NCBI RefSeq assembly: GCF_023015905.1
Contig: NZ_JALKBD010000008.1
Span: 62,001 to 126,000 of the forward strand
Direction of reading: 5' to 3'
Origin: Arenibacter sp. F20364
GTDB lineage: Bacteria; Bacteroidota; Bacteroidia; Flavobacteriales; Flavobacteriaceae
Length of the DNA stretch: 64,000 nucleotides
The notes below the pieces were generated by a model. It worked only from the letters and a program-made list of their open reading frames with translations. It had not been told where the DNA came from and ran no database searches. Positions 21,515 through 56,782 of the stretch are shown here, in pieces; within the stretch, counting starts at the first letter, position 1; the number at the start of each line of letters is the position of its first letter. Both the position numbers and the translations under genes were made by a program.

Positions 21515-21524
21515 CGTTCTAATT

Positions 21525-29602: not shown

Positions 29603-29621
29603 TCAAAAAATTCTGTCAAAA

Positions 29622-31364: not shown

Positions 31365-31389
31365 CAATTAGCTTGAATTAATTTTAGAT

Positions 31390-31416: not shown

Positions 31417-31683
31417 ATTCTTTAGGGGATGGTATGGTTTCTTAAAATTCATGAAAAATTAGCCGCTAACATTCTAATCATTAGAAGGTGCTTCCAATTA
31501 TCCTGTAGCATTATTCTCCAAGAGTTTGCCTTTAGGATTGCATTAAGAATTTTTGTTGTATTTTGTCTTGAATGTTCAATTCCATAATTTGTACTTATTA
31601 TAATTGGTGCGGTCTACAGAGCTGCATTTTATTATCAATGTGAATATGATTAGGCAAGTAAGGATAGTAAATAGAGACTTTTT

Positions 31684-33792: not shown

Positions 33793-33803
33793 GATAAAAA
33801 AAT

Positions 33804-34679: not shown

Positions 34680-34685
34680 TTGGAA

Positions 34686-35699: not shown

Positions 35700-35710
35700 T
35701 TCTAAAAGAG

Positions 35711-37570: not shown

Positions 37571-37589
37571 ACCATAACCAACCAAACTT

Positions 37590-39188: not shown

Positions 39189-39222
39189 CACTACCATGAT
39201 CAATAATATTAAATAATAAAAA

Positions 39223-40698: not shown

Positions 40699-40710
40699 TG
40701 AAATTATAAA

Positions 40711-41616
40711 ATGATGAAAATCGCAAATGCTCCATGCTCATGGGGCGCCTTGGAATTTGACCTGGAAGAAAAATCCGAAGAGATAGGATTTGAACAGGTG
40801 CTGGACGAAATAAAGGAAACCGGATATATAGGCACGGAGTTAGGGGACTGGGGCTATATGCCTACTACTCCCAGTCTACTCAAAGTGGAATTGGATAAAA
40901 GGCATTTGGATCTTTTGGGTGCTTTTGTTCCCGTAGCTTTGGCCAAAGCTGCCAACCATGATGCAGGTGTTGTTTCTGCCTTAAAAGTAGCGGAACTTAT
41001 GTTCAATGCCGGCTACACGAATTCTTTTATTGTTTTGGCAGATGACAATGGTTCCGTTCCCGAACGCACTAAAAATGCGGGAAGAATTACTCCTGCTATG
41101 GGACTCTCGGAAGAACAGTGGAAAGTATATGCCGCAGGTGCAGAAAGGATAGCGAAGGCAGTGAAGGATGCCTACGGTATAAGGACGGTATTTCATCATC
41201 ACTGTGCCGGATATGTAGAAACCCCTGAAGAAATAGATAAACTCATGGCCCTGACCGATACGGAATTGTTGGGATTGTGTTTGGATATGGGACATTATGC
41301 CTTTGGAGGAGGTGATCCTGTAAAGGCCCTGAAAAAGTATGGCAAAAGAATTTGGCATGTGCATTTTAAGGATTATAGTCCTAAAGCGGCCAAAGCGTCC
41401 CGGGAGGCCAACGGGGATTATTTTGATGCTATTAAAAGGGGGGTATTCTGCGAACTAGGAAAAGGTGCGGTAGATTTTCAATCCATTGTAAAGATACTGG
41501 AAGAAATGAAATATAACGATTGGATAGTAGTGGAGCAGGACATTCTACCGGGCATGGGAAATCCCAAAATATGTGCACAGGCCAATAGGGATTACATAAA
41601 ATCCTTAGGGTTATAG
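40711..41616 (+). CDS. iolE: Inosose dehydratase (xylose-isomerase-like TIM barrel)
   Basis: Dehydrates scyllo-inosose to 3D-(3,5/4)-trihydroxycyclohexane-1,2-dione, the substrate of IolD. 301 residues, AP-endonuclease-2/TIM-barrel fold. IANAPCSWGALEF opens the first strand; metal-site residues lie in FHHHCAGYVETPEEID (near 152-167), CLDMGHYAFGGGDP (near 190) and IWHVHFKDYS (near 213), followed by ELGKGAVDF and VVEQD. This set is typical of IolE rather than the isomerase IolI. The start may be either of two adjacent ATG codons (40711 or 40714). Confidence 0.87.
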   Translation: MMKIANAPCSWGALEFDLEEKSEEIGFEQVLDEIKETGYIGTELGDWGYMPTTPSLLKVELDKRHLDLLGAFVPVALAKAANHDAGVVSALKVAELMFNAGYTNSFIVLADDNGSVPERTKNAGRITPAMGLSEEQWKVYAAGAERIAKAVKDAYGIRTVFHHHCAGYVETPEEIDKLMALTDTELLGLCLDMGHYAFGGGDPVKALKKYGKRIWHVHFKDYSPKAAKASREANGDYFDAIKRGVFCELGKGAVDFQSIVKILEEMKYNDWIVVEQDILPGMGNPKICAQANRDYIKSLGL

Positions 41617-41659
41617 ACAAATCAAAGTTTACGAAACAATTTTAAAGAAATATACATCA

Positions 41660-42670
41660 ATGACTAAAGTTAAATTCGCGGTAGCAGGGTTGGGAAGGAT
41701 AGGAAAGATCCATTTGGAAAACCTGCTGCAGATGGAAAATGTGGAAGTGGTGGCTGTAATGGATCCTATGGAGGAATGCCGGAAATATGCAAGGGAAAAG
41801 AAAATACCCAACATAACCAACACCTACGAGGAGCTATTGATGGTGGCCCCTTTCGATGCGGTGGTCATCTGTTCCCCTACCGATACCCATGCCAATTATG
41901 TTGAAATGGCGGCGAAAGCTGGGTTACAGGTTTTTTGTGAGAAACCTTTGGATTTATCCATGCAGCGGGTAGTTGAGGTTTTAAAAGTGGTCAAGGAAGC
42001 TGATATTAAGTTGATGTTGGGTTTTAATCGCCGATTCGATAAGGAGTTTAGAAAAGTTCATGAATTGGTAAAGCAGGGTGCCGTAGGGCAGCCCCACTTG
42101 GTAAAAATAACCAGTCGGGATCCGGGAGCGCCACCGGTAAGCTATATTAAACAATCTGGAGGTCTATTTTTAGATATGACCATACACGACTTTGATATGG
42201 CCAGATTTGTAGTGGGCAAGGAAATCGAAGAGGTCTATGCCAAAGGAGCAGTCCTTGTGGATCCAGCTATAGGCGAGGCAGGGGATATAGATACTGCTGT
42301 GGTTACCTTGACCTATACGGACGGTACCATGGCCGTTATAGACAATAGTAGGGAAGCCGCTTATGGCTATGACCAAAGAATAGAGGTGTTCGGATCCAAA
42401 GGAATGGCACAGGCAGACAATAATTATGAAGATTCACATAGGTTGTATACCCATAAAGGAATCCAAGGTTCACTACCGTTGCACTTTTTTTTGGAAAGAT
42501 ACGCCGAGGCCTATAAAACCGAAATGTCGAGTTTTGTGAAGAGTTTGAAGAATGGGGATGCCGTTGCGGTGGACGGTATAGATGGATTAAAGTCCCTGCA
42601 AATTGGCCTAGCGGCCATAAAATCATTAAAAGAAAAAAGACCTGTAAAAATTGAGGATATAGGGAATTAG
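41660..42670 (+). CDS. iolG: Inositol 2-dehydrogenase (Gfo/Idh/MocA family)
   Basis: NAD-dependent oxidation of myo-inositol to scyllo-inosose, the entry step. 336 residues. Rossmann motif AGLGRIGKIHLENL at 9-22, catalytic lysine Lys95 in FCEKPLDLS, and Asp172 and His176 in LDMTIHDFDMAR; this Lys-Asp-His set agrees with Bacillus subtilis IolG. It is the last gene of the operon, so the first enzyme of the pathway is encoded last. A weak GC-poor hairpin follows (42670-42712) before a 294-bp spacer. Related dehydrogenases act on other sugars, but the operon fixes the role. Confidence 0.92.
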   Translation: MTKVKFAVAGLGRIGKIHLENLLQMENVEVVAVMDPMEECRKYAREKKIPNITNTYEELLMVAPFDAVVICSPTDTHANYVEMAAKAGLQVFCEKPLDLSMQRVVEVLKVVKEADIKLMLGFNRRFDKEFRKVHELVKQGAVGQPHLVKITSRDPGAPPVSYIKQSGGLFLDMTIHDFDMARFVVGKEIEEVYAKGAVLVDPAIGEAGDIDTAVVTLTYTDGTMAVIDNSREAAYGYDQRIEVFGSKGMAQADNNYEDSHRLYTHKGIQGSLPLHFFLERYAEAYKTEMSSFVKSLKNGDAVAVDGIDGLKSLQIGLAAIKSLKEKRPVKIEDIGN

Positions 42671-42964: not shown

Positions 42965-43546
42965 TTGAAAAAAGGTCAGCCCAATATCAACAATGAATTT
43001 TTTCTTTCCCTATTGGAAAAGGGAGAGAAATGTGCATTTGAGACCTTGTTCAGACTCTACTATACCAAATTGGTAAATATAGCCAAAGGTTATCTAGTGT
43101 ATCATCAGGAGGCCGAGAACATTGTCCAGAGTGTATTTCTGAAATTATGGGAAAATAAAGGGTCTCTAAAGGAGGTTACCAATATTAATAACTACTTGTA
43201 TACCATGACCAAGAATTCTTGCTTGGACCAATTGAAGCACGAAAAGGTTAAGAGGAACTACATAGATAATAGTTATCGCATAAAATCCGAAATTCAATAT
43301 AAATTTATTCAAGATGAAGCAGCCTCCCTGTTACTTGAAAACGAATTGGAAAGCAAAATTATTCATAGTATAGAATTACTACCTGAAAAATGCAAAAATA
43401 TTTTCAAGAAGAGCCGACTAGAGGGCTTGAAGCATAGTGAAATAGCAGCACAGATGGGTGTTTCCCACAAAACGGTAGATAACCATATTGCCACTGCCCT
43501 GAGGCATATGAGGTTTCATTTAAGGGAATTTATCTCAATTTCATAA
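42965..43546 (+). CDS. ECF-type RNA polymerase sigma factor (FecI-like)
   Basis: 193 residues. Region 2 is AFETLFRLYYTKLVNIAKGYLV with ENIVQSVFLKLWENKGSL, and region 4 is LPEKCKNIFKKSRLEGLKHSEIAAQMGVSHKTVDNHI. A stop lies upstream in frame (42932) and there is no ATG before the conserved part, so the start is the TTG at 42965 (MKKGQPNINNEF), an uncommon start codon. It is followed after 60 bp by a FecR anti-sigma gene and then an STN-type SusC, the standard trans-envelope signalling cassette of Bacteroidota. It should activate the SusC/SusD pair when substrate binds outside. Confidence 0.92.
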   Translation: MKKGQPNINNEFFLSLLEKGEKCAFETLFRLYYTKLVNIAKGYLVYHQEAENIVQSVFLKLWENKGSLKEVTNINNYLYTMTKNSCLDQLKHEKVKRNYIDNSYRIKSEIQYKFIQDEAASLLLENELESKIIHSIELLPEKCKNIFKKSRLEGLKHSEIAAQMGVSHKTVDNHIATALRHMRFHLREFISIS

Positions 43547-43606: not shown

Positions 43607-44755
43607 ATGACGATGCTAGATCAAAAAATATACAAATACTTAAGGGGTACTGCAACTTCAAAGGAGGAAAAGGAAGTTCAGGACTGGATTGTTTCTTCGG
43701 ATCAAAATGCGAAAAGATTCTTTGAGATCAAGGCCAAATATGTGGCATCCACCTTGGATGAAACGGATGTAGATTTAGATCCCTCCTTCCAAGGTATTGT
43801 CAATGCCCAAAAAACAACCTCCAGAAATGGACGTCGTCTTCCACTTGCTATTTTGAAATCGGCTGCTATTTTAACAATTCTTGTAGGGCTAGGTTTTATA
43901 TTTAGGAATACTATTGTTGATTCCCGTACTGCACCAGTTATTCCTGGTGATGCCATTATATTACAGTTGGAAAATGGAAATATTGAGGTAATCTCAGAAG
44001 GGGGAGAGGCCAAGGTTGTAGATTCTGAAGGCAATGTATTGGGGGCCCAACAAGGGGCACAGTTAGTCTATAAGAACAATGGGACTTCAAAAGAGGAGAT
44101 AACCTACAATACGCTCACGGTTCCCTATGGTAAGAGATTTGATCTGTTGCTTTCCGATGGAACCCAGATAACTCTTAATTCTGGAACATCCCTCAAATAT
44201 CCAGTACAATTCTTAAAAACAAAAAACAGGCAGGTTTTTCTGGATGGGGAAGCTTTTTTTAATGTAGCCAAGGATTCGTTAAATCCCTTTATAGTAAATA
44301 CCAATGGACTTAATGTGCGTGTTTTGGGGACAAAATTTAATTTATCCTCCTATCCGGAAGATCAATATGTCAATACTACGCTTGTAGAGGGGTCGGTTTC
44401 TGTTTACAATAAACAGGACACTTTTGATTCTTCCAATGCTTCTTTATTGGAACCTGGATTTAAAGCGGAATGGAACAAATACAATAAACAGATTTTAGTC
44501 GAAGAGGCTGATATAGCCATGCATACCGATTGGTTGAACGGGAAAATCATTTTGAGACATGTTCCCTTTAAGAACATAGTAAAGAAATTGGAACGGCACT
44601 ATAATGTGGAGATCGTGAACAATAATCCCGAACTTGATGAAGAATTGTTTACGGCAAGTTTTGATGTTGAAACCATTGACCAAGTGTTTAAAACCTTTAA
44701 CCTCACCTATGAAATGAATTATAAGATCAACGACAGACAAATAATTATCAACTAA
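43607..44755 (+). CDS. FecR-family anti-sigma factor
   Basis: 382-residue inner-membrane anti-sigma factor. The N-terminal 80 residues (IYKYLRGTATSKEEKEVQDWI) form the cytoplasmic sigma-binding part, residues about 82-105 are the membrane span (LPLAILKSAAILTILVGLGFIF), and the periplasmic FecR domain follows (TVPYGKRFDLLLSDGTQITL, RQVFLDGEAFFNVAKD, GLNVRVLGTKFNLSSY). The C-terminal DUF4974 part (VPFKNIVKKLERHYNVEIV) contacts the STN domain of the partner SusC. It lies between the sigma factor and the SusC gene, separated from the latter by 178 bp that hold a minus-strand terminator. Confidence 0.92.
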   Translation: MTMLDQKIYKYLRGTATSKEEKEVQDWIVSSDQNAKRFFEIKAKYVASTLDETDVDLDPSFQGIVNAQKTTSRNGRRLPLAILKSAAILTILVGLGFIFRNTIVDSRTAPVIPGDAIILQLENGNIEVISEGGEAKVVDSEGNVLGAQQGAQLVYKNNGTSKEEITYNTLTVPYGKRFDLLLSDGTQITLNSGTSLKYPVQFLKTKNRQVFLDGEAFFNVAKDSLNPFIVNTNGLNVRVLGTKFNLSSYPEDQYVNTTLVEGSVSVYNKQDTFDSSNASLLEPGFKAEWNKYNKQILVEEADIAMHTDWLNGKIILRHVPFKNIVKKLERHYNVEIVNNNPELDEELFTASFDVETIDQVFKTFNLTYEMNYKINDRQIIIN

Positions 44756-44933: not shown

Positions 44934-47900
44934 ATGAAAAACCTAATTAGGCTGGGGAGGGAATCCCATTTTCAGCTACAATATGATTTGAAAATGAAGC
45001 TAACTACATCGTTGTTATTGATTGTATCGCTTTTTCAAATTCATGCTAACGAAACTTATGGTCAAAAGACCAAAGTTACCTTGAACCTCGAAAATGTAAG
45101 CATTGAAAGTGTATTGAACAGAATTGAGTCGCTTACAGAATTCAAATTCATGTATAATGATAAGGAGGTAGATTATAAAAAAATTGTCTCCGTGAGCGCT
45201 GATAAAGAATTGGTAACTACAATTCTTGATAGAATTTTTTCTGAGATGCACATTACCTATGAGGTATTGGATAAACAGATAGTGCTTAAACCGGAAAAAA
45301 ATATTCCCCACCCAACTAGGGACGAAGAAAGAAAGGTTGAGTTGTATCAGCCATTTAAGGTAAATGGTACTATTTTGGATAATGACGGGACTCCATTACC
45401 GGGAGCGAACGTTCTGGAAAAAGGAACGACCAACGGTACCCAGTCCGATTTTGACGGTAATTTTTCCATAGAGGTAAATGGGCCAAACGCAGTTCTAGTA
45501 GTTTCTTATATAGGTTTTACTACAACGGAAATGGCACTAAACGGGCAGACCAATGTTTCTATTACCTTGGAAGAGAGCGCTACCGGTCTAAGTGAAGTAG
45601 TAGTAACGGCTTTGGGGATTAAAAGGGAAAAGAAGTCCCTGGGATACGCATCCCAAGAGCTTGATGGCGAGCAGGTATCCGCGGCCAGGGAGCCCAATCT
45701 TTTGAACGGCATTTCCGGAAAGGTGGCCGGTCTACAGATTACCAATAGTCCTTCCGGTCTGGGAGGTTCTGCCAGAGTATCCATTAGAGGCGATGCTTCC
45801 TTGAACATCAATGGCAACTCTCCCTTGTTCATAGTCGATGGAACGCCTATCAGCAACGAAATTGTTGGTTCCAGTGGTTCGGGCACACAGGATGTGGATT
45901 ATGGAAACGGAGCTTCAGAAATAAATCCGGAGAATATAGAATCCATCAACGTTCTTAAAGGGCCTGCCGCTGCTGCATTATATGGGGCCAGAGCAGCAAA
46001 CGGGGCCATTATTATAACCACCAAGAAGGGGATTACCAAAAAAGGTCAGTTGGGTGTTTCCATCAATTCCGGTATCACCATGGAAAGTGTCCTGCTTTTG
46101 CCCGATTGGCAAAATGAATATGGACAAGGTAACAACCAGCAATTTGCATTTGTTGATGGGAGTGGTAGTGGTATAGCCGATGGTGTCGATGAGAGTTGGG
46201 GACCTAAATTGGATACCGGCCTTATGATCCCACAATTCGATTCGCCTCGTGAGGACGGAACTCGGGGTGGGGATTATCTAGTGAGCGATTCCCCTATAAT
46301 TCCAACTCCTTGGGTTTCCAATCCTGATAACACTTTGGATTTTTTCAATACCGGTTACACCAAAACCAATAGCATTGCCATTTCAAAATCGGGTGACCTT
46401 GGAAATATTAGATTCTCTTACCAAAATCTGGATCAGGAGGGCATTGTGCCGAATACGGACCTTAGAAGAAATACCTTCAATTTGAATACGGGCCTTAACC
46501 TGACTGATAAACTGACGATCAATACCAATGTAAATTATATAAAATCCGATAGTGACAATAGGCCTTCCCTAAGTTATGGTACGGAAAGTATCATGTACCT
46601 TTTTATTTGGTATGGAAGGCAATTGAATACGAACAGTATGAGGGATTATTGGATGCCGGGCAGGGAAGACTTGCAGCAGTTCAACTATAATTACAATTAT
46701 CATGACAACCCCTTCTTTAACGTATATGAAAATACCAATTCACAGAACAAGGATAGGGTGTACGGAAATATTAGCGCCAACTATGCCATAAACGATAATT
46801 GGAATTTAATGGTGAGGACCGGAAGGGATTTTTACCGCGACCTAAGGGGCAAAAAGAGGGCCTTCAGTACCCAGCGTTTTCCTCTGGGATATTATAGGGA
46901 GGACAATGTGTTTTTTGAAGAGTCCAACACGGATTTCTTGCTTTCATATGATAAGACCTTCAAAGAAAAATGGAACGTAAATATATCGGCTGGTGGCAAC
47001 CAATTTCGCCAAAAACAAGAGTATACCCAAACTGTGGCCCCACAGTTGATCAACCCCGGGGTCTATTCCTTTAACAATACCAGAAGGCCGCTGGAAGTAT
47101 ATACGAACAACGAACAGAAGAGGATCAACAGCCTCTACGGTTTTGCCAGGTTTGCCTATGATAATCTGCTTTTTTTGGATGTGACAGGGCGGAACGATTG
47201 GTCCAGTACCCTGCCCACGGATAACAATTCCTATTTCTATCCATCGGTTACGCTGAGTGCTATAGCCAGTGATATGTTCACAATGCCCGAATTTGTGTCC
47301 TTTGCAAAATTGCGGGCGGCATATGCAGAGGTAGGTAATGATACGGACCCCTACAAACTTTCAAGCTTCTTTACCAATGAAACACCGTTTGGGGACAATC
47401 CCATTCTAACGGAATCTTCGCTGATCCCCAATGCAGCTCTAAAACCGGAAATTACCTCTTCCTATGAGATTGGTGCCGATATCCGTTTGTTCCAGAGCAG
47501 GTTGAATTTGGATGCCACCTATTATGACGGTCGCACCAAGAACCAGATCATACCTATAAGTACTGATATTTCAAGTGGATATACCAGTAAGTTGATCAAT
47601 GCCGGTGAGGTCAGGAATTATGGGTTCGAGGCCATGTTGAATGTTGTACCCGTTAGGACGGAAAACTTTACTTGGAACACCATGTTCAACTATTCCAGAA
47701 ACAGGAGCGAGGTTACCGATCTGGGTGGGATAGATTATACGCTTACAGAGCGGAACAGTGTCTTTATCCAGGCTAGGGAAGGCGGTTCCATCAGTGCCAT
47801 TTATGGTAGGGGATTCCAACGTGTAGAAGACGAGAACAGTGAGTATTACGGGCAAATGATCGTAAATAACAGCGGTATCCCCATTAGAACGGACGATCTG

Positions 47901-48455
47901 GTGTACCAGGGCGATTACGCCCCCGATTATACCTTGGGGATACTGAACAGCTTTAAGTATAAGTCCTTGGATCTTGGGTTTATGTTCGATATTCGGCAAG
48001 GGGGCATAGTAGTGTCCAGGACCAAAACCATAGGCTCCACCTCCGGGCAGTTGAAAGAGACTTTGGAAGGTAGGGAGACCGGAATAGTGGCGGACGGTGT
48101 ATTGGAGACCTCACCGGGCGTATATACCCCCAATACCATTAATGTGGATGTCAGGACCTACAACAACCGCTACTATGAGCGGGATAACGTAGAGGCTGCC
48201 AAGTACGACGCCTCCTATACGAAATTGCGAGAAGTCACCTTAGGGTATACGCTGCCCAAGCGTATTATTGATAAACTCCCCGTAAGTAAGGCAAGGTTGT
48301 CGTTGACAGGAAGAAATTTGGCGCTATGGACGGACAACCCCCATTTTGATCCGGAAACCGTCTCGGTTGCCGGTGGTACCCTGCAGCCCGGTATAGAGAA
48401 TATGTCCTATCCCAGTACCAGAACATACACGCTGAATTTACAAATCGATTTTTAA
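44934..48455 (+). CDS. SusC/RagA family TonB-dependent transporter with STN signalling domain
   Basis: 1173-residue outer-membrane importer. After a long N-terminus and signal peptide (MKLTTSLLLIVSLFQIHANE) comes the STN domain, residues about 45-120 (VTLNLENVSIESVLNRIE, ITYEVLDKQIVL), which signals to the FecR protein. Then the regulatory-like domain (VNGTILDNDGTPLPGANVLE), the plug (SEVVVTALGIKREKKSLGYA, VSIRGDASLNINGNSPLFIVDG, INVLKGPAAAALYGARAANG) and the barrel ending YTLNLQIDF. Control is by the ECF/FecR pair encoded upstream and perhaps by an antisense RNA over its start. Cargo unknown; it stands between the inositol and the amino-alcohol operons. Confidence 0.93.
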   Translation: MKNLIRLGRESHFQLQYDLKMKLTTSLLLIVSLFQIHANETYGQKTKVTLNLENVSIESVLNRIESLTEFKFMYNDKEVDYKKIVSVSADKELVTTILDRIFSEMHITYEVLDKQIVLKPEKNIPHPTRDEERKVELYQPFKVNGTILDNDGTPLPGANVLEKGTTNGTQSDFDGNFSIEVNGPNAVLVVSYIGFTTTEMALNGQTNVSITLEESATGLSEVVVTALGIKREKKSLGYASQELDGEQVSAAREPNLLNGISGKVAGLQITNSPSGLGGSARVSIRGDASLNINGNSPLFIVDGTPISNEIVGSSGSGTQDVDYGNGASEINPENIESINVLKGPAAAALYGARAANGAIIITTKKGITKKGQLGVSINSGITMESVLLLPDWQNEYGQGNNQQFAFVDGSGSGIADGVDESWGPKLDTGLMIPQFDSPREDGTRGGDYLVSDSPIIPTPWVSNPDNTLDFFNTGYTKTNSIAISKSGDLGNIRFSYQNLDQEGIVPNTDLRRNTFNLNTGLNLTDKLTINTNVNYIKSDSDNRPSLSYGTESIMYLFIWYGRQLNTNSMRDYWMPGREDLQQFNYNYNYHDNPFFNVYENTNSQNKDRVYGNISANYAINDNWNLMVRTGRDFYRDLRGKKRAFSTQRFPLGYYREDNVFFEESNTDFLLSYDKTFKEKWNVNISAGGNQFRQKQEYTQTVAPQLINPGVYSFNNTRRPLEVYTNNEQKRINSLYGFARFAYDNLLFLDVTGRNDWSSTLPTDNNSYFYPSVTLSAIASDMFTMPEFVSFAKLRAAYAEVGNDTDPYKLSSFFTNETPFGDNPILTESSLIPNAALKPEITSSYEIGADIRLFQSRLNLDATYYDGRTKNQIIPISTDISSGYTSKLINAGEVRNYGFEAMLNVVPVRTENFTWNTMFNYSRNRSEVTDLGGIDYTLTERNSVFIQAREGGSISAIYGRGFQRVEDENSEYYGQMIVNNSGIPIRTDDLVYQGDYAPDYTLGILNSFKYKSLDLGFMFDIRQGGIVVSRTKTIGSTSGQLKETLEGRETGIVADGVLETSPGVYTPNTINVDVRTYNNRYYERDNVEAAKYDASYTKLREVTLGYTLPKRIIDKLPVSKARLSLTGRNLALWTDNPHFDPETVSVAGGTLQPGIENMSYPSTRTYTLNLQIDF

Positions 48456-48466
48456 TTGCATAAAAG

Positions 48467-50047
48467 ATGAAAAACATACATATATCAAAAAAGGGTTTCT
48501 TCACGATGTTTCTTTTGGCAGCTTTTATGGGTTGTACGGAAGACTTTGAAGAAATAAACCAAAATCCCAACTTTCCAGAGCAAGCTTCCTCGGAACTGCT
48601 CTTACCGGGGGTTTTAAGACAAATGGCCTATAATTGGGGGAACCAAGGATGGGAAGAGGGTTTTACCGTGGTCCAATATGGAGCGCGACTGCAGTTTACC
48701 TCAGGGGATATATATCAGTGGTCCCCTACCAGTGACCCTTATAATGACGCTTATGACGGACTGCGCGATATTGAGAATATTATTCGCGATACCAGGGAAA
48801 ATCCGGATCGCCAAAATTATTACGGTGTTGGGCTTATCGTAAAATCATGGATCTATTCCTACCTTACGGATGCTTATGGCGATGTGCCCTACGCGGACGC
48901 CGTAAAGGGGATCACGGATGATAATATTACCCCGGAATTTACGCCCCAACAGGAAATTTATGACGGTCTTTTGGCCGACTTAAAAGCAGCCAATACAGCA
49001 TTGACCGGAACACAGAATATATCCGGGGATATTTTGTACGGTGGGGATGTTTTGAAATGGAGGAAGTTTGCCAATTCGCTCAGGCTCCGTCTGTTGATGA
49101 GGATCAGTGATGTGGACCAGGCCAAAGCTACGGCCGGTATGGTAGAGATTATGGGAGACCCAACAACATACCCCATATTTGAAAGCAATGGGGATGCAGC
49201 GCTCTTGCAATGGAATTCCGATAATCCACAACCCAAATACAATACAAGATCCGGTAGTTTTGATGAGGTTAGGCTGAGCCTTACCCTGGAGACCAGATTG
49301 AAGGATCTGAACGATAGAAGGCTTATTGTTTTTGCGCAGCCTACTTCCAATTCCGGAAAGGGAATCTATTCTGACAATCTGGATGATTATGTAGGTATGC
49401 CCAACGGCCTGGATGATGAGGCCGCCCTAGGATACAGCCCTACCGGAAACCCCGATGAGGTGGGGTCCAATTTTATTTCGCGAATTGGTATTTTATTGGC
49501 GTGCAGGGCCTGTAATGTAGAGCTTGCTTCCCCAACGGCTTCACAGACCATTATAATGGATTATTCCGAGCTACAGTTTATCCTTGCAGAGGCCAGGGAA
49601 AGAAATCTTATCACCGTAGGTGATGCCGCCACTTACTATGAAAATGGTATCCGAGCGTCCTTTTCGTACTACTTGGATAGGATCGTTGCCGGCGGATGGA
49701 ACGAAATTGCTGCAGATCTTCAAGCTTTTGACCTGGATGCCTATATAGCGCAGACTACAGTGGCCTATACCGGAACAACCGCTGAAAAGTTGGAAAAGGT
49801 AGCCCTTCAAAAATGGATAGCTCTCTTTTATACCGGTTTTGAAGCGTGGTCCGATTGGAGGCGTACCGGAATGCCGGAAGTTATACCAGGTCCGGATGCC
49901 GTAAACGATAAAAAGGTCCCGGTAAGGTTCCAGTATCCCAATTCCGTAAAATCAACCAATAATGCCAACTACCAGCAGGCTGTTACCCGAATGGGCGGGG
50001 ACGACCTAAACACGAGATTATGGTGGGATGTTGCCGATAATAATTAA
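48467..50047 (+). CDS. SusD/RagB family outer-membrane lipoprotein (SusD-like group 2)
   Basis: 526-residue partner of the preceding SusC, 11 bp downstream. Lipobox ends at Cys23 (AAFMGC). The N-terminal part TEDFEEINQNPNFPEQASSELLLPGVLR and the block IVKSWIYSYLTDAYGDVPYADAVKG are typical of the SusD-like group often found with STN-type SusC proteins. It also has WRKFANSLRLRLLMRISDVD and QKWIALFYTGFEAWSDWRRTG near the C-terminus. An intrinsic terminator follows 38 bp downstream, so the uptake pair is a separate transcript from the permease operon. Confidence 0.92.
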   Translation: MKNIHISKKGFFTMFLLAAFMGCTEDFEEINQNPNFPEQASSELLLPGVLRQMAYNWGNQGWEEGFTVVQYGARLQFTSGDIYQWSPTSDPYNDAYDGLRDIENIIRDTRENPDRQNYYGVGLIVKSWIYSYLTDAYGDVPYADAVKGITDDNITPEFTPQQEIYDGLLADLKAANTALTGTQNISGDILYGGDVLKWRKFANSLRLRLLMRISDVDQAKATAGMVEIMGDPTTYPIFESNGDAALLQWNSDNPQPKYNTRSGSFDEVRLSLTLETRLKDLNDRRLIVFAQPTSNSGKGIYSDNLDDYVGMPNGLDDEAALGYSPTGNPDEVGSNFISRIGILLACRACNVELASPTASQTIIMDYSELQFILAEARERNLITVGDAATYYENGIRASFSYYLDRIVAGGWNEIAADLQAFDLDAYIAQTTVAYTGTTAEKLEKVALQKWIALFYTGFEAWSDWRRTGMPEVIPGPDAVNDKKVPVRFQYPNSVKSTNNANYQQAVTRMGGDDLNTRLWWDVADNN

Positions 50048-50084
50048 TGGTGCAACCAAGAAAAAGCAAATTATAAATCTATTG

Positions 50085-50114
50085 AACCATAGGGATTTTT
50101 CCCTATGGTTTTTT
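50085..50114 (+). terminator. Intrinsic terminator after the third SusD
   Basis: AACCATAGGG and CCCTATGGTT form a perfect 10-bp stem around ATTTTT, followed directly by TTTT. It separates the SusC/SusD transcript from the permease gene at 50216. Confidence 0.85.
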
Positions 50115-50215: not shown

Positions 50216-51706
50216 ATGGGCAAAGGCGTGAAGTACAAGAAAATGGACAAATCCTATTTTGAATCCAGGGAACTCAAACGGCACGCCGGTGTTTGGTCCT
50301 TATGGGCCTTGGGTGTTGGAGCGGTGATTTCCGGACATTTTTCCGGATGGAACTTAGGATTGGCTTCCGGAGGATGGGGAGGAATGTTTGTCGCTACTTG
50401 TATTGTAGCCATTATGTATGTTGGACTTACCCAAAGTGTCGCTGAAATGTCTCCCGCCCTGCCGCATACTGGCGGAGCATATTCTTTTGCAAGGTCGGCC
50501 ATGGGACCCTGGGGCGGATTCTTCACTGGCTTGGTAGAAAACTTGGAATTTATACTTACTCCTGCCGTTATTGTTTTTTTTCTAAGTAATTATATGCAGG
50601 GCATCTTTGAAACGGCACCGGAGATGTTGCCTTTTTGGTGGTTCGGATTTTATACCATATTTACAGTTTTGAATATAGTAGGTGTGGAACTCTCTTTCAA
50701 ATTTACGGTAGCACTCACCTTATTGGCTTTAGGATGTTTGGGCATATTTTGGGTATCTTCTATTGGAAGTGCCGATTTTATGACTTATGCCTTGGATATT
50801 AAGGCTGGAGCGGATGGGAGTGCTGAACATTTGGAGGGAGGGGGCGGTTCCCTTTTTCCAATGGGATGGGAAGGAGCGCTCAAAGCAATGCCCTTTGCGG
50901 TTTGGTTGTTTTTGGCCATTGAACAGCTGCCCTTGGCGGCGGAGGAATCCATGGATCCAAAGAAAGATATGCCCAAGGGTTTGACCTATGGTATTATCAC
51001 CTTGATTATTTCGGCCTTTTTAATTCTTTGGCTCAATGCCTCCATACCTTTAGGGTCATACGCCCTTTCCCAATCTGGGGAACCCTTATTGGACGGCTTT
51101 AAGGTGCTCTACGGAGATAATATTGCCAAGCTTCTGGCCTTGGTAGCTTCCATTGGGCTGTTGGCATCTTTCCATACCATTATTTTTGCTTTTGGAAGGC
51201 AGATTTATTCATTGTCCAGGGCAGGGTATTTTCCGGTGTTACTTTCATTGACACATAGCAAAAGAAAAACGCCCTACACAGCCTTGATTCTTGGTTCTCT
51301 CATTGGATTTACGGTTTTAATGGTTACCAAGTTTTTGGCCGGGAATGAAAGTGAGGTATTTATTGGAGGCGCCTTGCTCAATATTGCTGTTTTTAGTGCC
51401 ATGTTATCGTATATTCTACAATGTGGTTCCTTTTTGTTATTACGCAAGAATAAGCCGGATCTGGTAAGACCATATATTAGCCCTTTTGGGAAACCAGGTG
51501 CTTGGGCCACTATTTTTCTGGCCAGTGTAATCATCTATTTTCAACTACAGGATCAATCTTATAGAACTGCCGTTTTTATATCCATAGGGTATCTAATTAT
51601 CGGGTTGGTATACTTTGGGGTTCAAGGGAGACACCGATTGATACTCTCGCCTGAGGAAGAATTTGCCTTGGAGCACGAAGCACAGAAAGCAATGGTAAAA
51701 AACTAA
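50216..51706 (+). CDS. Ethanolamine-type amino-acid/amine permease (APC superfamily)
   Basis: Inner-membrane permease of 496 residues with about 12 spans. The N-terminus RHAGVWSLWALGVGAVISGHFSGWNLGLASGGWGGM and AEMSPALPHTGGAYSFARSAMGPWGGFFTGL are close to the ethanolamine permease family (EutP/EatA type) within the APC superfamily. AIEQLPLAAEESMDPKKDMPKGL is the conserved cytoplasmic loop. It is followed by a gamma-glutamyl ligase, two dehydrogenases and an amidotransferase, which supports an amino-alcohol or amine substrate. The gap to the next gene is 235 bp, so a second promoter there is possible. Choice of ethanolamine is from family resemblance. Confidence 0.85.
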   Translation: MGKGVKYKKMDKSYFESRELKRHAGVWSLWALGVGAVISGHFSGWNLGLASGGWGGMFVATCIVAIMYVGLTQSVAEMSPALPHTGGAYSFARSAMGPWGGFFTGLVENLEFILTPAVIVFFLSNYMQGIFETAPEMLPFWWFGFYTIFTVLNIVGVELSFKFTVALTLLALGCLGIFWVSSIGSADFMTYALDIKAGADGSAEHLEGGGGSLFPMGWEGALKAMPFAVWLFLAIEQLPLAAEESMDPKKDMPKGLTYGIITLIISAFLILWLNASIPLGSYALSQSGEPLLDGFKVLYGDNIAKLLALVASIGLLASFHTIIFAFGRQIYSLSRAGYFPVLLSLTHSKRKTPYTALILGSLIGFTVLMVTKFLAGNESEVFIGGALLNIAVFSAMLSYILQCGSFLLLRKNKPDLVRPYISPFGKPGAWATIFLASVIIYFQLQDQSYRTAVFISIGYLIIGLVYFGVQGRHRLILSPEEEFALEHEAQKAMVKN

Positions 51707-51941
51707 ATTATACAGCTCTAGCTAGGTATTATTCAATAATTTTATGGAGCATTTTTATGAAGGGATGGCAATAATGTAAACAGGGATATGTGACCGTTAA
51801 TATATTTTCAACTATATCTAAGGCATATCACTAAATATTGGAATAAGGATAACCGAATCAATTAAAAAAGCTGAAAAATGTAATCTTAAATGTCCATGAC
51901 AGGGGACTTATAGGTTAATAGTTCACAATAAAAATAAACAG

Positions 51942-53318
51942 ATGAAAAAGGAAGCACCAAAAATGACCATAGAATCGGTTAGAAGTTATATAAACGAACA
52001 TCAAATTGAAAATATTAAGTTGGCCGTGGTGGATGTCGATGGTGTTCTCCGCGGGAAATATGTAAATTCAAAAAAATTTCTATCTGCTTTGGATAAAGGT
52101 TTTGGGTTTTGTAGTGTCATCTTTGGTTGGGATTCCAATGATGTTCTATATAACAACGATTCCTTTACTGGCTGGGCAGATGGTTTTACCGATGCAAACG
52201 CTACGATAGATGCATCCAGTATGCGTATGTTGCCCACGGAGGATTTTAAGTCCGTTATTTTTTTGGTAGATTTTTCAGAGAGCAGTGCAGCAAGTGTTTG
52301 TCCAAGATCTATTCTGCGGAAAACCTTGGAGAGATTGGGAAACTTGGGGCTTAAGGCAAGTGCTTCTTTTGAGTTCGAATTTTTCCTTTTTAATGAATCC
52401 CCTAAATCTGTTCGCGATAAGAATTACCATAATTTGGAACCAATGACGCCAGGTAACTTTGGGTATTCCATATTGCGCAGTTCTACCCATGCCAGTTTTT
52501 ATCACGAAATAATGGAACTCTCCAGGGAGATGGGCATGCCCCTTGAAGGTTTGCATACAGAGACTGGTGCAGGGGTGCTCGAAGGGGCCCTTGAGTACTC
52601 TGAAGCCTTAAGGGCAGCCGATAATGGAGCTTTGTTTAAAAATTTTATTAAAGTTTGGGCGCAACAAAACAATTTAATGGCCTGCTTTATGGCCAAGTGG
52701 TCTTCCGATTATCCGGGGCAATCCGGTCATATTCATATTTCATTGCAAAATAAGGACGGTTCCTCTGCATTCTTCGATAAAAATAAATCCGAAGGCATGT
52801 CCGATGTGATGCGATGGTTTATTGGAGGGCAACAAAAACTAATGCCTGAATTTTTGGCTATGGTAGCCTCTACATGCAACAGCTATACGAGACTCATTCC
52901 GGGTTTTTGGGCACCCACTGCGGCTTCCTGGGGCGTAGACAATAGAACCTGTGCCCTCAGGGCCATTCCAGGATCCGAAAAATCGCAAAGAGTGGAATAT
53001 AGGGTATCCGCAGCTGACATTAATCCCCATTTGGCACTGGCAGCCGCTATTGGTTCCGGGATATGGGGAATAGAGAATAAAATTGAACCTACAAAAGGGG
53101 TAGATGGAAACGCTTACGATGTAGACTTTTCCCAGGAACTGCAGTTGCCCAGGACCTTGTCCCAAGCTGCCGAAAAATTCAAGAACTCGAAAATTGCACG
53201 GGACCTGTTTGGTGATATATTTGTGGATCATTATGCTTATACCCGACTATGGGAAGATCAACAACAACTGGGAGCTATAACAGACTGGCAATTAAAACGT
53301 TACTTCGAAATAATATAA
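51942..53318 (+). CDS. Glutamine-synthetase-like gamma-glutamyl-amide ligase
   Basis: 458-residue member of the glutamine synthetase superfamily. Metal/ATP motifs are FEFEFF (143-148), ETGAGVLEGAL (207-217), SGHIHIS (261-267), NSYTRLIPG (313-321), NRTCALRA (334-341) and RVEYR (350-354). The sequence is of the PuuA/IpuC/GlnA4 type, which joins glutamate to an amine instead of ammonia; true GlnA proteins have different loops. Members are known to glutamylate putrescine, isopropylamine/alaninol or ethanolamine. With an ethanolamine-type permease before it and two dehydrogenases after it (6 bp to the next start), the product is predicted to be gamma-glutamyl-ethanolamide. The amine is inferred. 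Confidence 0.85.
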   Translation: MKKEAPKMTIESVRSYINEHQIENIKLAVVDVDGVLRGKYVNSKKFLSALDKGFGFCSVIFGWDSNDVLYNNDSFTGWADGFTDANATIDASSMRMLPTEDFKSVIFLVDFSESSAASVCPRSILRKTLERLGNLGLKASASFEFEFFLFNESPKSVRDKNYHNLEPMTPGNFGYSILRSSTHASFYHEIMELSREMGMPLEGLHTETGAGVLEGALEYSEALRAADNGALFKNFIKVWAQQNNLMACFMAKWSSDYPGQSGHIHISLQNKDGSSAFFDKNKSEGMSDVMRWFIGGQQKLMPEFLAMVASTCNSYTRLIPGFWAPTAASWGVDNRTCALRAIPGSEKSQRVEYRVSAADINPHLALAAAIGSGIWGIENKIEPTKGVDGNAYDVDFSQELQLPRTLSQAAEKFKNSKIARDLFGDIFVDHYAYTRLWEDQQQLGAITDWQLKRYFEII

Positions 53319-53324
53319 AAGAAA

Positions 53325-54710
53325 ATGATAAATACAATAACACCTATAGACGGCACTATTTATTATTCTGCCGAAGAGCACGGTCCAAAGGATATTGAAC
53401 AGGCCTTAAATTTGGCTGAAAATGCATTTCCGATTTGGTCCGATCTTTCCATTGTCGAACGTGCGGAATACATAACAGCATTCGTTGAAGCCATTGTTGA
53501 GGATAAGAATGATATCGCCCTCGAAATAACCTGGCAAATGGGGAGGCCCGTGGGTCAATCCCCCGGAGAGATAAAGGGTTTTGCAGACCGTGCCCATTAT
53601 ATGATAGGAATAGCGGAAGAGGCTTTGGGCGACTATAAAGTTGTAGATGCCGAGAATCCGGATAAAAGATGGGTAGAGCGTGTTCCAATCGGTGTGGTTA
53701 GTGTGCTGAGTCCTTGGAACTATCCATTCTTGACCTCTGTAAATGCTATTGTTCCAGCTTTAATGGCGGGCAACGTAGTTGTTTTAAAGCATTCGTTCCA
53801 GACACCATTGGTGGCGGAACGTTATGCCAAGGCAGCAACCAAGGCTGGACTGCCAAAAGGAGTATTTCAGATACTGCAGCTGAACCATAAAAATACCGCC
53901 CAGTTAATTGCCGATTCCAGAATAGACGGAGTGTACTTTACAGGCTCCGTACAAGGTGGAGTAGCCGTTCAGAATTCCTTGACAAACAAATTTATACCCT
54001 GTGGTTTGGAATTGGGAGGAAAGGATCCTGCCTATGTCATGGCCGATGCCCATTTGGAAAATAGTGTAGAAAATTTGGTGGATGGGGCTTTTTTTAACAG
54101 TGGGCAGTCCTGTTGTGGTATTGAAAGGATTTATGTTCATGAAACGCTTTACGACAGGTTTGTTGATGGATTTGTAGCTCTTACCAAGCAATACAAATTA
54201 GGGAATCCTTTGGATGCCGAAACCAATTTGGGACCAATGGTAAAGACAGATGCGGCCAATTATGTCAGAAAACAAATAGAGCAGGCCCTGGGTAAAGGGG
54301 CAAAATCCTTGGTGGCCGAATCTTTGTTTGCAGCATCCAAAAAAGATACGCCTTATTTATCTCCGCATGTACTGGTCAATGTGGATCACAGTATGGAGGT
54401 AATGACCGAGGAGAGTTTTGGACCCGTAGTTGGGATTATGAAGGTGAAGAATGATGAGGAGGCATTAAGTTTAATGAATGATTCCCAATATGGACTTACC
54501 GCTTCCCTTTGGGCAAACGATATGGATAGGGCTATTGATCTGGGGAGGAAAATTGAGACCGGTACCGTTTTTATGAACCGTTGCGATTATTTGGATCCTG
54601 CACTGGCTTGGACGGGCGTTAAAAATTCCGGCAAGGGCGTTACATTGTCAAAAATGGGATACGACCATGTTACCCGGGTAAAATCATTCAATTTTCGAAA
54701 AGGGAAGTAA
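53325..54710 (+). CDS. NAD(P)-dependent aldehyde dehydrogenase
   Basis: 461-residue ALDH. SPWNYPF (129-135) contains the oxyanion-hole Asn, Glu229 in GLELGGKDP is the general base and Cys263 in SGQSCCGIERIY the nucleophile, so it forms a free acid rather than a CoA ester. EESFGPVVGIMKV and the C-terminal NSGKGVTLSKMGYDHVTRVKSFNFR complete the fold. Translation start lies 6 bp after the ligase stop, strong evidence for an operon. Proposed role: oxidise the gamma-glutamyl-amino-aldehyde made by the next gene product to gamma-glutamyl-glycine. Substrate from context only. Confidence 0.88.
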   Translation: MINTITPIDGTIYYSAEEHGPKDIEQALNLAENAFPIWSDLSIVERAEYITAFVEAIVEDKNDIALEITWQMGRPVGQSPGEIKGFADRAHYMIGIAEEALGDYKVVDAENPDKRWVERVPIGVVSVLSPWNYPFLTSVNAIVPALMAGNVVVLKHSFQTPLVAERYAKAATKAGLPKGVFQILQLNHKNTAQLIADSRIDGVYFTGSVQGGVAVQNSLTNKFIPCGLELGGKDPAYVMADAHLENSVENLVDGAFFNSGQSCCGIERIYVHETLYDRFVDGFVALTKQYKLGNPLDAETNLGPMVKTDAANYVRKQIEQALGKGAKSLVAESLFAASKKDTPYLSPHVLVNVDHSMEVMTEESFGPVVGIMKVKNDEEALSLMNDSQYGLTASLWANDMDRAIDLGRKIETGTVFMNRCDYLDPALAWTGVKNSGKGVTLSKMGYDHVTRVKSFNFRKGK

Positions 54711-54752
54711 AAAATTTTAGATCAGTTTATAAAATTTAAAAAATAAGAATTA

Positions 54753-55925
54753 ATGCAATTAGCAAATACAAATTGGAATTATCCTACCACCATCTGGTTT
54801 GGAAATGGTAGAATAAACGAAATATCGCAGGCATGCAAAAAATTGGGAATCAACAACCCTTTATTTGTTACCGATGAAGGCTTGGTAAAACTGGATATTG
54901 TTGAAAATACCGTAAACATTCTAAAAAGGGATGGGTTGAGTTTCACGTTATACAGTGATGTACAGGGAAATCCAACCGAAAAAAATGTGATGGACGGGGT
55001 GGCCCATTATTTGAAAAACAAGCATGATGGAGTCATTGCCTTTGGAGGTGGTTCCGCCATTGATGCAGCCAAGACTATAGCCTTTATGTCCGGCCAAACA
55101 AGGTCCCTTTGGGATTTTGAAGATGTGGGCGATAACTGGAGTTATGCAGATCCTGCCGGAATTGCTCCAATAATTGCAGTCCCTACCACGGCTGGTACTG
55201 GTTCCGAAGTGGGAAGGGCTTCAGTGATATTGGATGAAAAACTGCATACCAAGAAAATCATTTTTCACCCCAAAATGTTACCGGCAATCGTGATATCGGA
55301 TCCTGAACTTACTTTGGGCCTGCCACCACATATTACGGCTTGGACAGGGGTAGATGCTATGGTGCATGCCATTGAGGCCTATTGTGCTCCAGGGTACCAC
55401 CCTATGGCCGACGGTATTGCCATTGAAGCTATCCGAATTATTGTCAAGTTTTTGCCAATAGCAGTTAAGGACGGAAAAAATTTGGAAGCCAGGGGACAAA
55501 TGTTGGTAGCAGCATCCATGGGCGCAACCGCCTTTCAAAAAGGATTGGGCTCCGTGCATTCCGTTGCCCATCAATTGGGAGCATTGTACAATAAACAGCA
55601 TGGCCTGCTCAATGCCATAATATTGCCTTATGCCCTTAAACAGAATAAGGCGGCTATTGAGGATAGAATGGTGCATTTAAGCAAAGTTCTTGGACTGGAA
55701 AAGGAAGGTGCCGATGCTTTTATCGATTATATAATTGGCCTTAGAAAAACTTTGAATATTCCGCATACGCTTAAGGAAATTGACATTAATGGGGACAATG
55801 CCAGGGAGATCGGGGAAATGGCCTATAAGGACCCATCAACGCCTTCCAATGCAAAACCTGTTAATGCAAAAGATTTGGAGCAACTTTTTAGGGCCGCGGT
55901 GTCTGGAGATATAAACGGACTATAA
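54753..55925 (+). CDS. Iron-containing alcohol dehydrogenase
   Basis: 390-residue group III alcohol dehydrogenase. NAD site GGGSAIDAAKT (98-108), PTTAGTGSEVGRASV, and four metal ligands Asp201, His205, His269 and His283, whose spacing matches E. coli FucO. GSVHSVAHQLGALYNKQHGLLNAIILP is diagnostic. It lies 42 bp after the ALDH gene and 2 bp before the amidotransferase gene. In the proposed route it would oxidise the hydroxyl of gamma-glutamyl-ethanolamide to the aldehyde. A putrescine route would instead need a FAD amine oxidase, which is missing here, so an amino alcohol is the better fit. Confidence 0.88.
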   Translation: MQLANTNWNYPTTIWFGNGRINEISQACKKLGINNPLFVTDEGLVKLDIVENTVNILKRDGLSFTLYSDVQGNPTEKNVMDGVAHYLKNKHDGVIAFGGGSAIDAAKTIAFMSGQTRSLWDFEDVGDNWSYADPAGIAPIIAVPTTAGTGSEVGRASVILDEKLHTKKIIFHPKMLPAIVISDPELTLGLPPHITAWTGVDAMVHAIEAYCAPGYHPMADGIAIEAIRIIVKFLPIAVKDGKNLEARGQMLVAASMGATAFQKGLGSVHSVAHQLGALYNKQHGLLNAIILPYALKQNKAAIEDRMVHLSKVLGLEKEGADAFIDYIIGLRKTLNIPHTLKEIDINGDNAREIGEMAYKDPSTPSNAKPVNAKDLEQLFRAAVSGDINGL

Positions 55926-55927
55926 GC

Positions 55928-56725
55928 GTGAAATTATTAATAGTAGAAGGTAATAACGAACAGACACGTCTGCAGCGGGGAGCTGCTGGGATTAAACCCT
56001 ATCATCTGACGTTTCAGGAAATGCTAAGGGTTTTGGTCCCTAAGGCTAAGACCGATTTTGCTTTTCCTGCAGATGGTACAGGCGGATTGCCAACAGTTGC
56101 GGAATTGAAGCGGTATGATGGTGTTTTATGGACAGGGAGTTCTTTAAGTGTCCTTGATGATATTCCGGATGTTCTTGGGCAACTTAATTTTGCCGATGGG
56201 ATTTTTGAAAGCGGCGTGCCGTTCTACGGCAGCTGTTGGGGGATGCAGGTGGCCACAGTAGTGGCTGGGGGAAAGGTGGCATTAAGTCCTAATGGATTGG
56301 AGTTTGGGATATCCAAGCCTATAGAAGTAACTGCTTCTGGAAAGGAAAGCCCTTTTTTTAAACATCGAAAAACGCCATTTACTGCCCTGTGTATTCATTA
56401 TGACGAGGTGGCAGAAGCACCTGAAAATGCTATTATTTTGGCCAGCAACGCACATTCCAAGGTGCAGGGCATGACTTTTGACTATAAGAATGGATCATTT
56501 TTTGGGGTACAATACCATCCTGAATTCAATACCTCGGAAATGGCTTTGATAGCTTCATTTTTATCTGAAAAATTAGTCAAAAGCACTGCTTTTGATTCCT
56601 CGAAAGAAGTTCAGGATTTTTGTTCGCAATTGAGGGAGCAAAAAGGCCTTCCGTTAGAAATAAGCGATTACCATCTCCATACCCAAGAAATAATGGCTTG
56701 GTTAAGACATATATCTGGAGAATAA
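55928..56725 (+). CDS. Class I glutamine amidotransferase-like hydrolase, probable gamma-glutamyl-amide hydrolase
   Basis: 265 residues from a GTG start at 55928, 2 bp after the dehydrogenase stop. The GATase1 triad is Cys103 in YGSCWGMQ, His197 and Glu199 in VQYHPEF, as in GMP-synthase-type amidotransferases. No synthetase domain is attached, so it should act as a stand-alone gamma-glutamyl hydrolase, a role played by PuuD in putrescine catabolism. Here it would release glycine and glutamate from gamma-glutamyl-glycine and close the cycle. Last gene of the operon; a 12-bp hairpin terminator follows within 24 bp. Confidence 0.85.
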   Translation: MKLLIVEGNNEQTRLQRGAAGIKPYHLTFQEMLRVLVPKAKTDFAFPADGTGGLPTVAELKRYDGVLWTGSSLSVLDDIPDVLGQLNFADGIFESGVPFYGSCWGMQVATVVAGGKVALSPNGLEFGISKPIEVTASGKESPFFKHRKTPFTALCIHYDEVAEAPENAIILASNAHSKVQGMTFDYKNGSFFGVQYHPEFNTSEMALIASFLSEKLVKSTAFDSSKEVQDFCSQLREQKGLPLEISDYHLHTQEIMAWLRHISGE

Positions 56726-56748: not shown

Positions 56749-56782
56749 AGAGGATGGTTTTAAAATGTGGAAACCATCCTCT
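56749..56782. terminator. Bidirectional intrinsic terminator
   Basis: AGAGGATGGTTT and AAACCATCCTCT make a perfect 12-bp stem around a 10-nt loop. A T-rich tail exists on both strands (TTTGTACTTTTT on plus; ATATATTTTATT on minus). It serves the convergent ends of the amidotransferase gene and the GH92 gene. Confidence 0.85.

Follow-up and report, generated by a model that had tools for sequence, protein, structure and literature searches.

The five-gene cluster and its distribution

Within the 5.7-Mb genome of Arenibacter sp. F20364 (Flavobacteriaceae), we analyzed a stretch of 64,000 nucleotides, here called the window (assembly GCF_023015905.1, contig NZ_JALKBD010000008.1, positions 62,001 to 126,000 of the forward strand), in which five intact + strand open reading frames (ORFs) at 50216-56725 probably encode a gamma-glutamylation pathway for ethanolamine, a major head group of membrane lipids. 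The predicted products are an APC permease, a glutamine synthetase (GS)-like ligase, an aldehyde dehydrogenase (ALDH), an iron-type alcohol dehydrogenase (Fe-ADH), and a class I amidotransferase; all five score above the Pfam cut-offs (AA_permease, Gln-synt_C, Aldedh, Fe-ADH, and GATase).

50216..51706, + strand: Eat-type APC permease, probable ethanolamine importer (TIGR00908, 344.5 bits, cut-off 381.75)
51942..53318, + strand: GS-like gamma-glutamyl-amine ligase, probable gamma-glutamylethanolamide synthetase (PF00120, 8e-95)
53325..54710, + strand: aldehyde dehydrogenase, probable gamma-glutamyl-aminoacetaldehyde dehydrogenase (PF00171)
54753..55925, + strand: iron-type alcohol dehydrogenase, probable gamma-glutamylethanolamide dehydrogenase (PF00465/PF25137)
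55928..56725, + strand, GTG start: class I glutamine-amidotransferase-fold hydrolase, probable gamma-glutamylglycine hydrolase (PF00117, 5e-16)

A preliminary description of this stretch had given the same order, with spacings of 6, 42, and 2 bp from ligase to hydrolase; the ORFs are indeed co-directional and so spaced, following a gap of 235 bp between permease and ligase. The order is identical in all eight loci of this kind (type A: permease-ligase-ALDH-Fe-ADH-GATase) that were fetched whole from relatives in four genera, the window's included, with ligases 73-96% identical to the window's. It is likewise kept in G804, viewed as two adjoining stretches, and G010 has the four enzyme genes in order with the permease adjoining (G and L numbers are our labels for genomes and loci). 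The ligase was matched at E 1e-60 in 14 of 40 near relatives, the window's own genome counted and all in its genus (four of the 17 other genus members are without it), in 25 of 397 family genomes, and in 52 of 395 phylum genomes; these counts take one match per listed genome, and the family and phylum searches scored no more than four candidates for each.

Further operon types were distinguished. Type B1 has the order permease-ligase-Fe-ADH-PuuD-like hydrolase-ALDH in 12 of 12 loci (ten in Flavobacteriaceae, two in one other family), with dehydrogenases more distant than those of type A and, in the case examined, a Peptidase_C26 hydrolase. In one genus (g232), two genomes have a type A operon and the third has type B1, so the two types can substitute for one another. 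In type C, locus L102 combines the ligase with a short-chain dehydrogenase, an ALDH, a class I amidotransferase, and a permease, a gene content resembling that of a Streptomyces cluster discussed below. Type B2 pairs a ligase (about 46% identical to the window's) with a HAD-IIA phosphatase and a 347-residue protein that is kinase-like by eye and has no Pfam or NCBIfam matches; both partners are present in 11 of 11 loci (e.g., L088 7088-8985), and the gene-order listings of these loci contain no permease or dehydrogenase labels. Might type B2 be an undescribed amine pathway? Locus L084 (ligase 41%, partner genes unlabelled save for a weak Fe-ADH match) was kept out of the types. The listings omitted overlapping ORFs and thereby missed some genes (e.g., the ligase of L067 and the ALDH of L073), and the main counts were redone by tblastn.

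Outside the phylum, plasmid pLlyPCM2298_1 of Legionella lytica carries ligase-ALDH-Fe-ADH with an amidotransferase-kind gene annotated as GMP synthase, and Photobacterium GJ3 has permease-ligase-ALDH-Fe-ADH. Rhizobium Vaf10 has a GMC oxidoreductase upstream of ligase-ALDH, and B. vietnamiensis G4 has a ligase, an ALDH, and an amidotransferase, without an alcohol dehydrogenase among the annotated genes of the part read. Thus an Fe-ADH, a short-chain dehydrogenase, or a GMC oxidoreductase may carry out the alcohol-oxidising step beside an unchanged pair of ligase and ALDH, which is consistent with an amino-alcohol substrate.

Predicted products and proposed pathway

Like the gene set and its order, the catalytic motifs and the relatedness of the products can be read directly. 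Comparison was made with Chromohalobacter/roseobacter-type (Eto) loci, of which 80 were found, 67 with at least 3.5 kb after the ligase; 62 of these 67 have ligase, ALDH, and Fe-ADH in the window's order (in L121, L124, L158, L160, and L173 the ALDH or Fe-ADH is not in place). A study of ethanolamine gamma-glutamylation in C. salexigens is reportedly that of Vetting et al. The trees (57, 50, and 37 rows) took in 10 of the 80 Eto-type loci with Bacteroidota and reference rows, omitted loci with a missed gene, and gave long-branch warnings that include PuuA, IpuC, and the Shinella ligase.

For the permease, the NCBIfam ethanolamine permease model TIGR00908 is by far the best, the next model scoring 100.6 bits. 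The ligase retains the six metal ligands of GS (E144, E146, E207, E214, H263, and E352) and further GS residues (G259, R317, R335, R340, R354, and H265); its ammonium site is altered, with F173 in place of Y179 and W323 in place of E327. GS residue N264 is replaced by P258 and D50 by N71, the latter in a region of uncertain alignment.

The dehydrogenases resemble those of the Eto loci. In the ALDH, E229 and C263 lie within the catalytic motifs and are presumably the catalytic residues; the protein is 47-57% identical to ALDHs of Eto loci sharing the ligase-ALDH-Fe-ADH order and 31.1% identical to PuuC, the ALDH of the Puu pathway. It falls in a branch with support 100/100 together with the ALDHs of Eto loci, four of five type C loci, L. 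lytica, and Photobacterium, a branch that excludes Escherichia coli PuuC, PatD, BetB, GabD, Sad, and AldA, the window's own IolA, and the type B1 ALDHs. Motif positions D201, H205, H269, and H283 are the candidate metal ligands of the Fe-ADH, which we take to be so by analogy with FucO. This enzyme is 49-57% identical to Eto-cluster alcohol dehydrogenases in loci with the same gene order, 37-42% to those of type B1, and 34% to EutG and FucO. It shares one 100/100 branch with the Eto enzymes, apart from EutG, FucO, and YiaY; the identities tell more than this tree, because the branch also holds the type B1 enzymes and only three outside references were included. The hydrolase has the triad motif residues of class I amidotransferases (C103, H197, and E199).

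Taken together, these features make it probable, in our judgment with good confidence, that the five genes specify gamma-glutamylation of ethanolamine. We infer the substrate and each reaction as follows. The Eat-type permease would carry ethanolamine over the inner membrane, and the ligase would couple it to the gamma-carboxyl group of glutamate at the expense of ATP. The Fe-ADH and then the ALDH would oxidise the alcohol to the aldehyde and on to gamma-glutamylglycine, which the amidotransferase-fold enzyme would split into glycine and glutamate, the latter being recycled. The preliminary description had proposed this sequence of gamma-glutamylation, alcohol-to-acid oxidation, and hydrolysis, and it remains the best reading of the top permease model, the Eto-clade ALDH, the Fe-ADH identities, and the lost ammonium site. 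Also in its favour are the ligase-ALDH-Fe-ADH order of Eto loci, L. lytica, and Photobacterium GJ3, the phosphoesterase genes near some type A and B1 loci, and the type B1 operons themselves, in which an equivalent set of functions recurs and the tested permeases pass the ethanolamine cut-off. Two corollaries were also drawn there. The B12-dependent ethanolamine ammonia-lyase would be bypassed, and EutB (PF06751) had no match in the genome in a search in which an E. coli positive control matched. An alcohol dehydrogenase would take the place of the Puu amine oxidase; the Fe-ADH is present and PuuB is absent from the five cluster genes, to which the search for it was confined.

The SusCD set and phosphoesterase neighbours

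The five genes are flanked by the following features.

42965..43546, + strand: ECF sigma factor, likely regulator of the SusCD pair (Pfam Sigma70_r2/r4)
43607..44755, + strand: FecR-like anti-sigma factor (Pfam FecR 1.1e-16, FecR_C 2e-18)
44934..48455, + strand: TonB-dependent outer-membrane transporter of the SusC kind, carrying an STN-like signalling domain (TonB barrel and Plug by Pfam; STN 28.3 bits, cut-off 28.4)
48467..50047, + strand: SusD-like surface lipoprotein (PF12771 SusD-like_2, 4e-95)
50084..50111, + strand: terminator-like hairpin between the SusD and permease genes (12-pair stem and T run, pattern match only)
56749..56782, + strand: terminator-like hairpin past the last gene (13-pair stem and T run, pattern match only)

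The hairpins with T runs on either side suggest that the five genes form their own transcription unit, separate from SusD; terminator-like patterns overall are not enriched (8 found, 8.1 expected from shuffles).

Upstream flanks were read in 13 genomes of the genus (the window's included; the flank of G014, at a contig edge, was excluded); in 9 of these, orthologous ECF, FecR, SusC, and SusD genes precede the permease, as they do in both type A genomes of g232. G004 and G008 have a different SusCD pair, its SusD 66% identical to one beside a type B1 operon, and G008 additionally retains the ECF and FecR genes and a 65%-identical SusC. In other genera, orthologous SusCD or SusD genes lie near the operon in G320, G112, G407, and G804, and not in G359. 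The permease is adjoined by a purple-acid-phosphatase-like protein in G320, by an alkaline-phosphatase-superfamily phosphodiesterase-like protein in G112 and G359, and by both in G407 and G804, so that one or other of these families stands beside the operon in all five genomes from outside the genus; the N-termini of these phosphoesterases, judged by eye, are mostly signal-peptide-like. Type B1 loci have comparable neighbours: in L076 the ALDH is followed by a purple acid phosphatase, a phosphodiesterase of the family just named, and a GDPD/alkaline-phosphatase fusion, and in L081 SusC, SusD, and phospholipase C genes lie upstream of the permease.

In a tblastn count, 10 of the 20 fetched type A and B1 stretches contained a SusD homologue, compared with 1 of 40 control stretches taken from those 20 genomes (Fisher p = 2.2e-5); phosphodiesterase, phosphatase, or phospholipase C genes occurred in 6 of 20 and 0 of 40, respectively (p = 7.7e-4). 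These p-values are not strict, since the genomes are related and the control positions were chosen by hand. The SusD count takes in distant homologues (26-30%), at one threshold for loci and controls. The phosphoesterase queries came from the counted loci themselves; five of the six positive loci were also matched by another locus's query, and L081, with its phospholipase C, by its own query only. Neither SusD nor a phosphoesterase was found in the fetched stretches of type B2 (0 of 11) and type C (0 of 6) loci.

Two other kinds of gene were seen in these neighbourhoods. Between SusD and the phosphatase, G407 and G804 encode a protein (L195 4529-5806) with a signal-peptide-like start, weak ComEC similarity, and an MBL-like appearance by eye, for which no Pfam family was found at 1e-5. 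Near the type A loci of G016 and G407, genes of the class III aminotransferase fold (L068 3222-4574 and L195 15046-16389) pass the NCBIfam model for PbfA, (R)-1-hydroxy-2-aminoethylphosphonate ammonia-lyase; do they hint at a connection with the phosphonate analogue of phosphoethanolamine? In the window's own genome, a homologue (59%) of the GDPD/alkaline-phosphatase protein lies on another contig, with no matches to the SusCD or operon queries within the surrounding 20 kb.

In Flavobacterium, SusCD-like PusCD pairs beside phosphoesterases are induced by phosphate depletion, with lipid head groups and nucleic acids as suggested sources (PMC8115612); that paper does not use the word ethanolamine. 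Given this precedent and the SusCD and phosphoesterase neighbourhood, we regard ethanolamine derived from phospholipid head groups as the most likely natural substrate. An ethanolamine-bearing compound is a plausible cargo for the SusCD pair, and we infer that the ECF, FecR, SusC, and SusD proteins most likely import and sense such a compound, for example glycerophosphoethanolamine. More tentatively, and at somewhat less than an even chance, the Flavobacteriaceae operon would be the cytoplasmic end of a SusCD-coupled, ECF-sigma-sensed locus for non-glycan, phosphoethanolamine-bearing lipid head groups, a trait put together on two or more occasions out of distinct enzyme sets: SusD would bind the head groups at the surface, SusC would import them, phosphate would be removed in the periplasm, and the ethanolamine would then be gamma-glutamylated. 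If the SusCD link is true, it supplies a testable cargo for SusCD pairs otherwise classed as glycan importers and joins the recovery of phosphorus, nitrogen, and carbon from phospholipids in one locus.

Further upstream, the window holds myo-inositol catabolism genes (32851-42670; IolB-, IolC-, IolD-, IolA-, and IolG-like by Pfam family and order, with an SSF symporter), accompanied by their own SusCD pair and LacI regulator (26630-32709). The IolG-like gene adjoins the ethanolamine locus in 13 of 13 same-genus genomes read, which places loci for two phospholipid head groups, inositol and ethanolamine, next to each other. A probable sialic acid utilisation locus occupies 10976-24845 (BNR sialidase-like protein, NanM-SSF fusion, GlcNAc 2-epimerase, DHDPS family, and SusD). 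A locus for glycosylphosphatidylinositol-anchor glycans, suggested by the inositol genes upstream, a GH92 gene downstream, and the sialic acid genes further up, was considered and set aside: G010 has no GH92 gene between the operon and PEPC, and the inositol genes are unmatched in the roughly 19-20 kb covered upstream of the operon in G320, G112, G407, and G359. A GH92 homologue (44%) further upstream in G407 runs counter to this rejection.

Alternative readings and comparison with known systems

Several observations weigh against an ethanolamine pathway fed by a SusCD pair. The window's permease falls below the equivalog cut-off of TIGR00908, as do those of three of three type A relatives (348-376 bits); all seven tested permeases from types B1 and C (six) and from Photobacterium exceed it, at 421-553 bits, among them three of three from type B1 and that of Photobacterium GJ3 at 552.9 bits. 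The hydrolase is 28.6% identical, over 161 residues, to its L. lytica counterpart. The ligase is just 29-33% identical to 20 Eto ligases, and the tree splits the window's ligase and the Eto ligases into two clades, each with support 100/99. The window's clade includes a member beside polyamine-transport genes (Rhodobacteraceae M382) and type B2 ligases with other partners. As for the surroundings, two of the 13 same-genus genomes (G010 and G016) have no SusCD genes in the interval from the permease to the inositol genes, phosphodiesterase or acid-phosphatase homologues of the relatives' kind stand beside the operon in none of the 13, and the relatives' phosphodiesterase had no match at E 1e-10 in the genome of the window, in a search run without a positive control.

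The position of the ligase bears on how far its relatives can serve as a guide. The Eto ligases group in one clade with those of type C, and a test of orthology between the window's ligase and the Eto ligase came out negative; the window's dehydrogenases, by their sequences, share descent with the Eto kind, and its ligase does not. The best PDB sequence matches of the ligase are 11zs, a Brucella protein, and then 5dm3, C. salexigens Csal_0679, both titled glutamine synthetase; grouping it with the Eto ligase on these matches is contradicted by the tree. Its own clade holds the ligases of L. lytica, Photobacterium, B. vietnamiensis, and M382 (48-54% identical), of Shinella (37%), and of the B types (42-49%). 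The M382 locus (L206 7134-15998) combines its 48%-identical ligase with a class III aminotransferase, an N-formylglutamate amidohydrolase, an ALDH, and a spermidine/putrescine ABC transporter, and is likely a polyamine version. With a clade so mixed, the substrate cannot be fixed from the ligase subfamily alone, and an assignment on that basis was dropped.

The same chemistry might serve another primary amino alcohol, such as alaninol, 3-aminopropanol, or serinol. The ligase shares 36% identity with a gene of Paenarthrobacter aurescens TC1 annotated as ipuC (gamma-glutamylisopropylamide synthetase), the specificity of the dehydrogenases is not readable from sequence, and the sub-threshold permease score also leaves room for such a substrate; yet we regard it as unlikely, given the wide lead of the ethanolamine permease model, the phospholipid-type phosphoesterase genes beside relatives' operons, and the clustering of the ALDH with those of Eto clusters. 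A Puu-like pathway for polyamines, or one for another amine, with the Fe-ADH merely incidental, would find a parallel in the M382 ligase and its aminotransferase and transport neighbours, but is quite improbable: the operon has no amine oxidase or aminotransferase among its genes by Pfam, the ligase is 30.5% identical to PuuA and reaches 196.7 bits with the PuuA model NF045547, whose cut-off is 650, the ALDH lies outside the PuuC clade, and the Fe-ADH is part of the operon in every type A locus fetched whole. That an ordinary glutamine synthetase, as the fold and the titles of the best structure matches might suggest, stands by chance beside unrelated dehydrogenases is scarcely credible when the ligase scores 216.8 bits against a GlnA equivalog cut-off of 429.15, two ammonium-site residues are substituted, and the gene order is kept across genera and on a gammaproteobacterial plasmid. 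Ethanolamine remains our preferred reading of the substrate.

For this substrate the route has been described elsewhere. When Phaeobacter MED193 grows on phosphorylethanolamine, four enzymes (ethanolamine gamma-glutamylase, gamma-glutamylacetaldehyde-amide dehydrogenase, gamma-glutamylethanolamide dehydrogenase, and gamma-glutamylglycine amidohydrolase) rise together with an ethanolamine-binding TRAP protein encoded in the same operon; the genes are closely related to those of Chromohalobacter salexigens, in which Csal_0678 binds ethanolamine (PMC10132767). By locus tag, Csal_0678 neighbours the ligase of that kind, Csal_0679. Locus L106 of C. israelensis, which encodes a protein near-identical to 5dm3, comprises, in this order, a regulator, a member of the N-formylglutamate amidohydrolase family (PF05013), two membrane subunits, a binding protein, the ligase, the ALDH, and the Fe-ADH, the regulator and transporter being named by eye and from the Phaeobacter order; the corresponding genes of Paracoccus TOH are annotated as RpiR, N-formylglutamate amidohydrolase, and TRAP. 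In Streptomyces coelicolor, GlnA4 is a gamma-glutamylethanolamide synthetase required for growth on ethanolamine, the rest of the route being proposed, and GlnA4 and PauA7 have lost ammonium-site residues of the same kind as the window's ligase (PMC6529630). With the route published for Chromohalobacter, Phaeobacter (EtoX clusters), and Streptomyces (GlnA4), the pathway itself is not new; for Bacteroidota, we found no paper in the open-access literature on ethanolamine gamma-glutamylation or SusCD-linked ethanolamine use. An ocean survey assigned about 94% of etoX matches to Alphaproteobacteria (PMC10132767); a marker of the TRAP kind, etoX included, would fail to pick up Bacteroidota in which an Eat permease and, probably, SusCD do the transport.

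The window's cluster shares with the Eto cluster (Csal_0678/0679; MED193_10026-10056) the ligase-ALDH-Fe-ADH order and the four proposed reactions. It differs in having a ligase from another GS-like subfamily (about 30%), an Eat-type permease in place of the TRAP system EtoVWX, a class I amidotransferase in place of the PF05013 hydrolase, and a SusCD/ECF/FecR set where the Eto cluster has an RpiR regulator. The Streptomyces cluster (SCO1610-1615) has in common with it a gamma-glutamylethanolamide synthetase route, an ALDH, a permease (in other Streptomyces), and a ligase without the GS ammonium-site residues; it has a short-chain dehydrogenase rather than an Fe-ADH, GlnA4 being compared by description. 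Its hydrolase is named a glutamine amidotransferase in the Figure 2 legend of PMC6529630 and a member of the formylglutamate amidohydrolase family in the Discussion. The E. coli Puu pathway likewise uses gamma-glutamyl protection, an ALDH, and an amidotransferase-fold hydrolase, with the PuuB amine oxidase where the window has an alcohol dehydrogenase. The Ipu system of P. aurescens TC1 has a related GS-like ligase, but ipuC is flanked by P450, ferredoxin, and ferredoxin-reductase genes that are absent from the window's cluster. PusCD loci (PMC8115612) resemble several relatives of the window in placing a SusCD-like pair beside phosphoesterases, unlike the window itself, which has no adjacent phosphoesterase. 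To judge from its genes, then, the window's cluster is a mosaic variant of the published pathway, and the most useful new element is the recurrent association of SusCD and phosphoesterase genes with two operon types.

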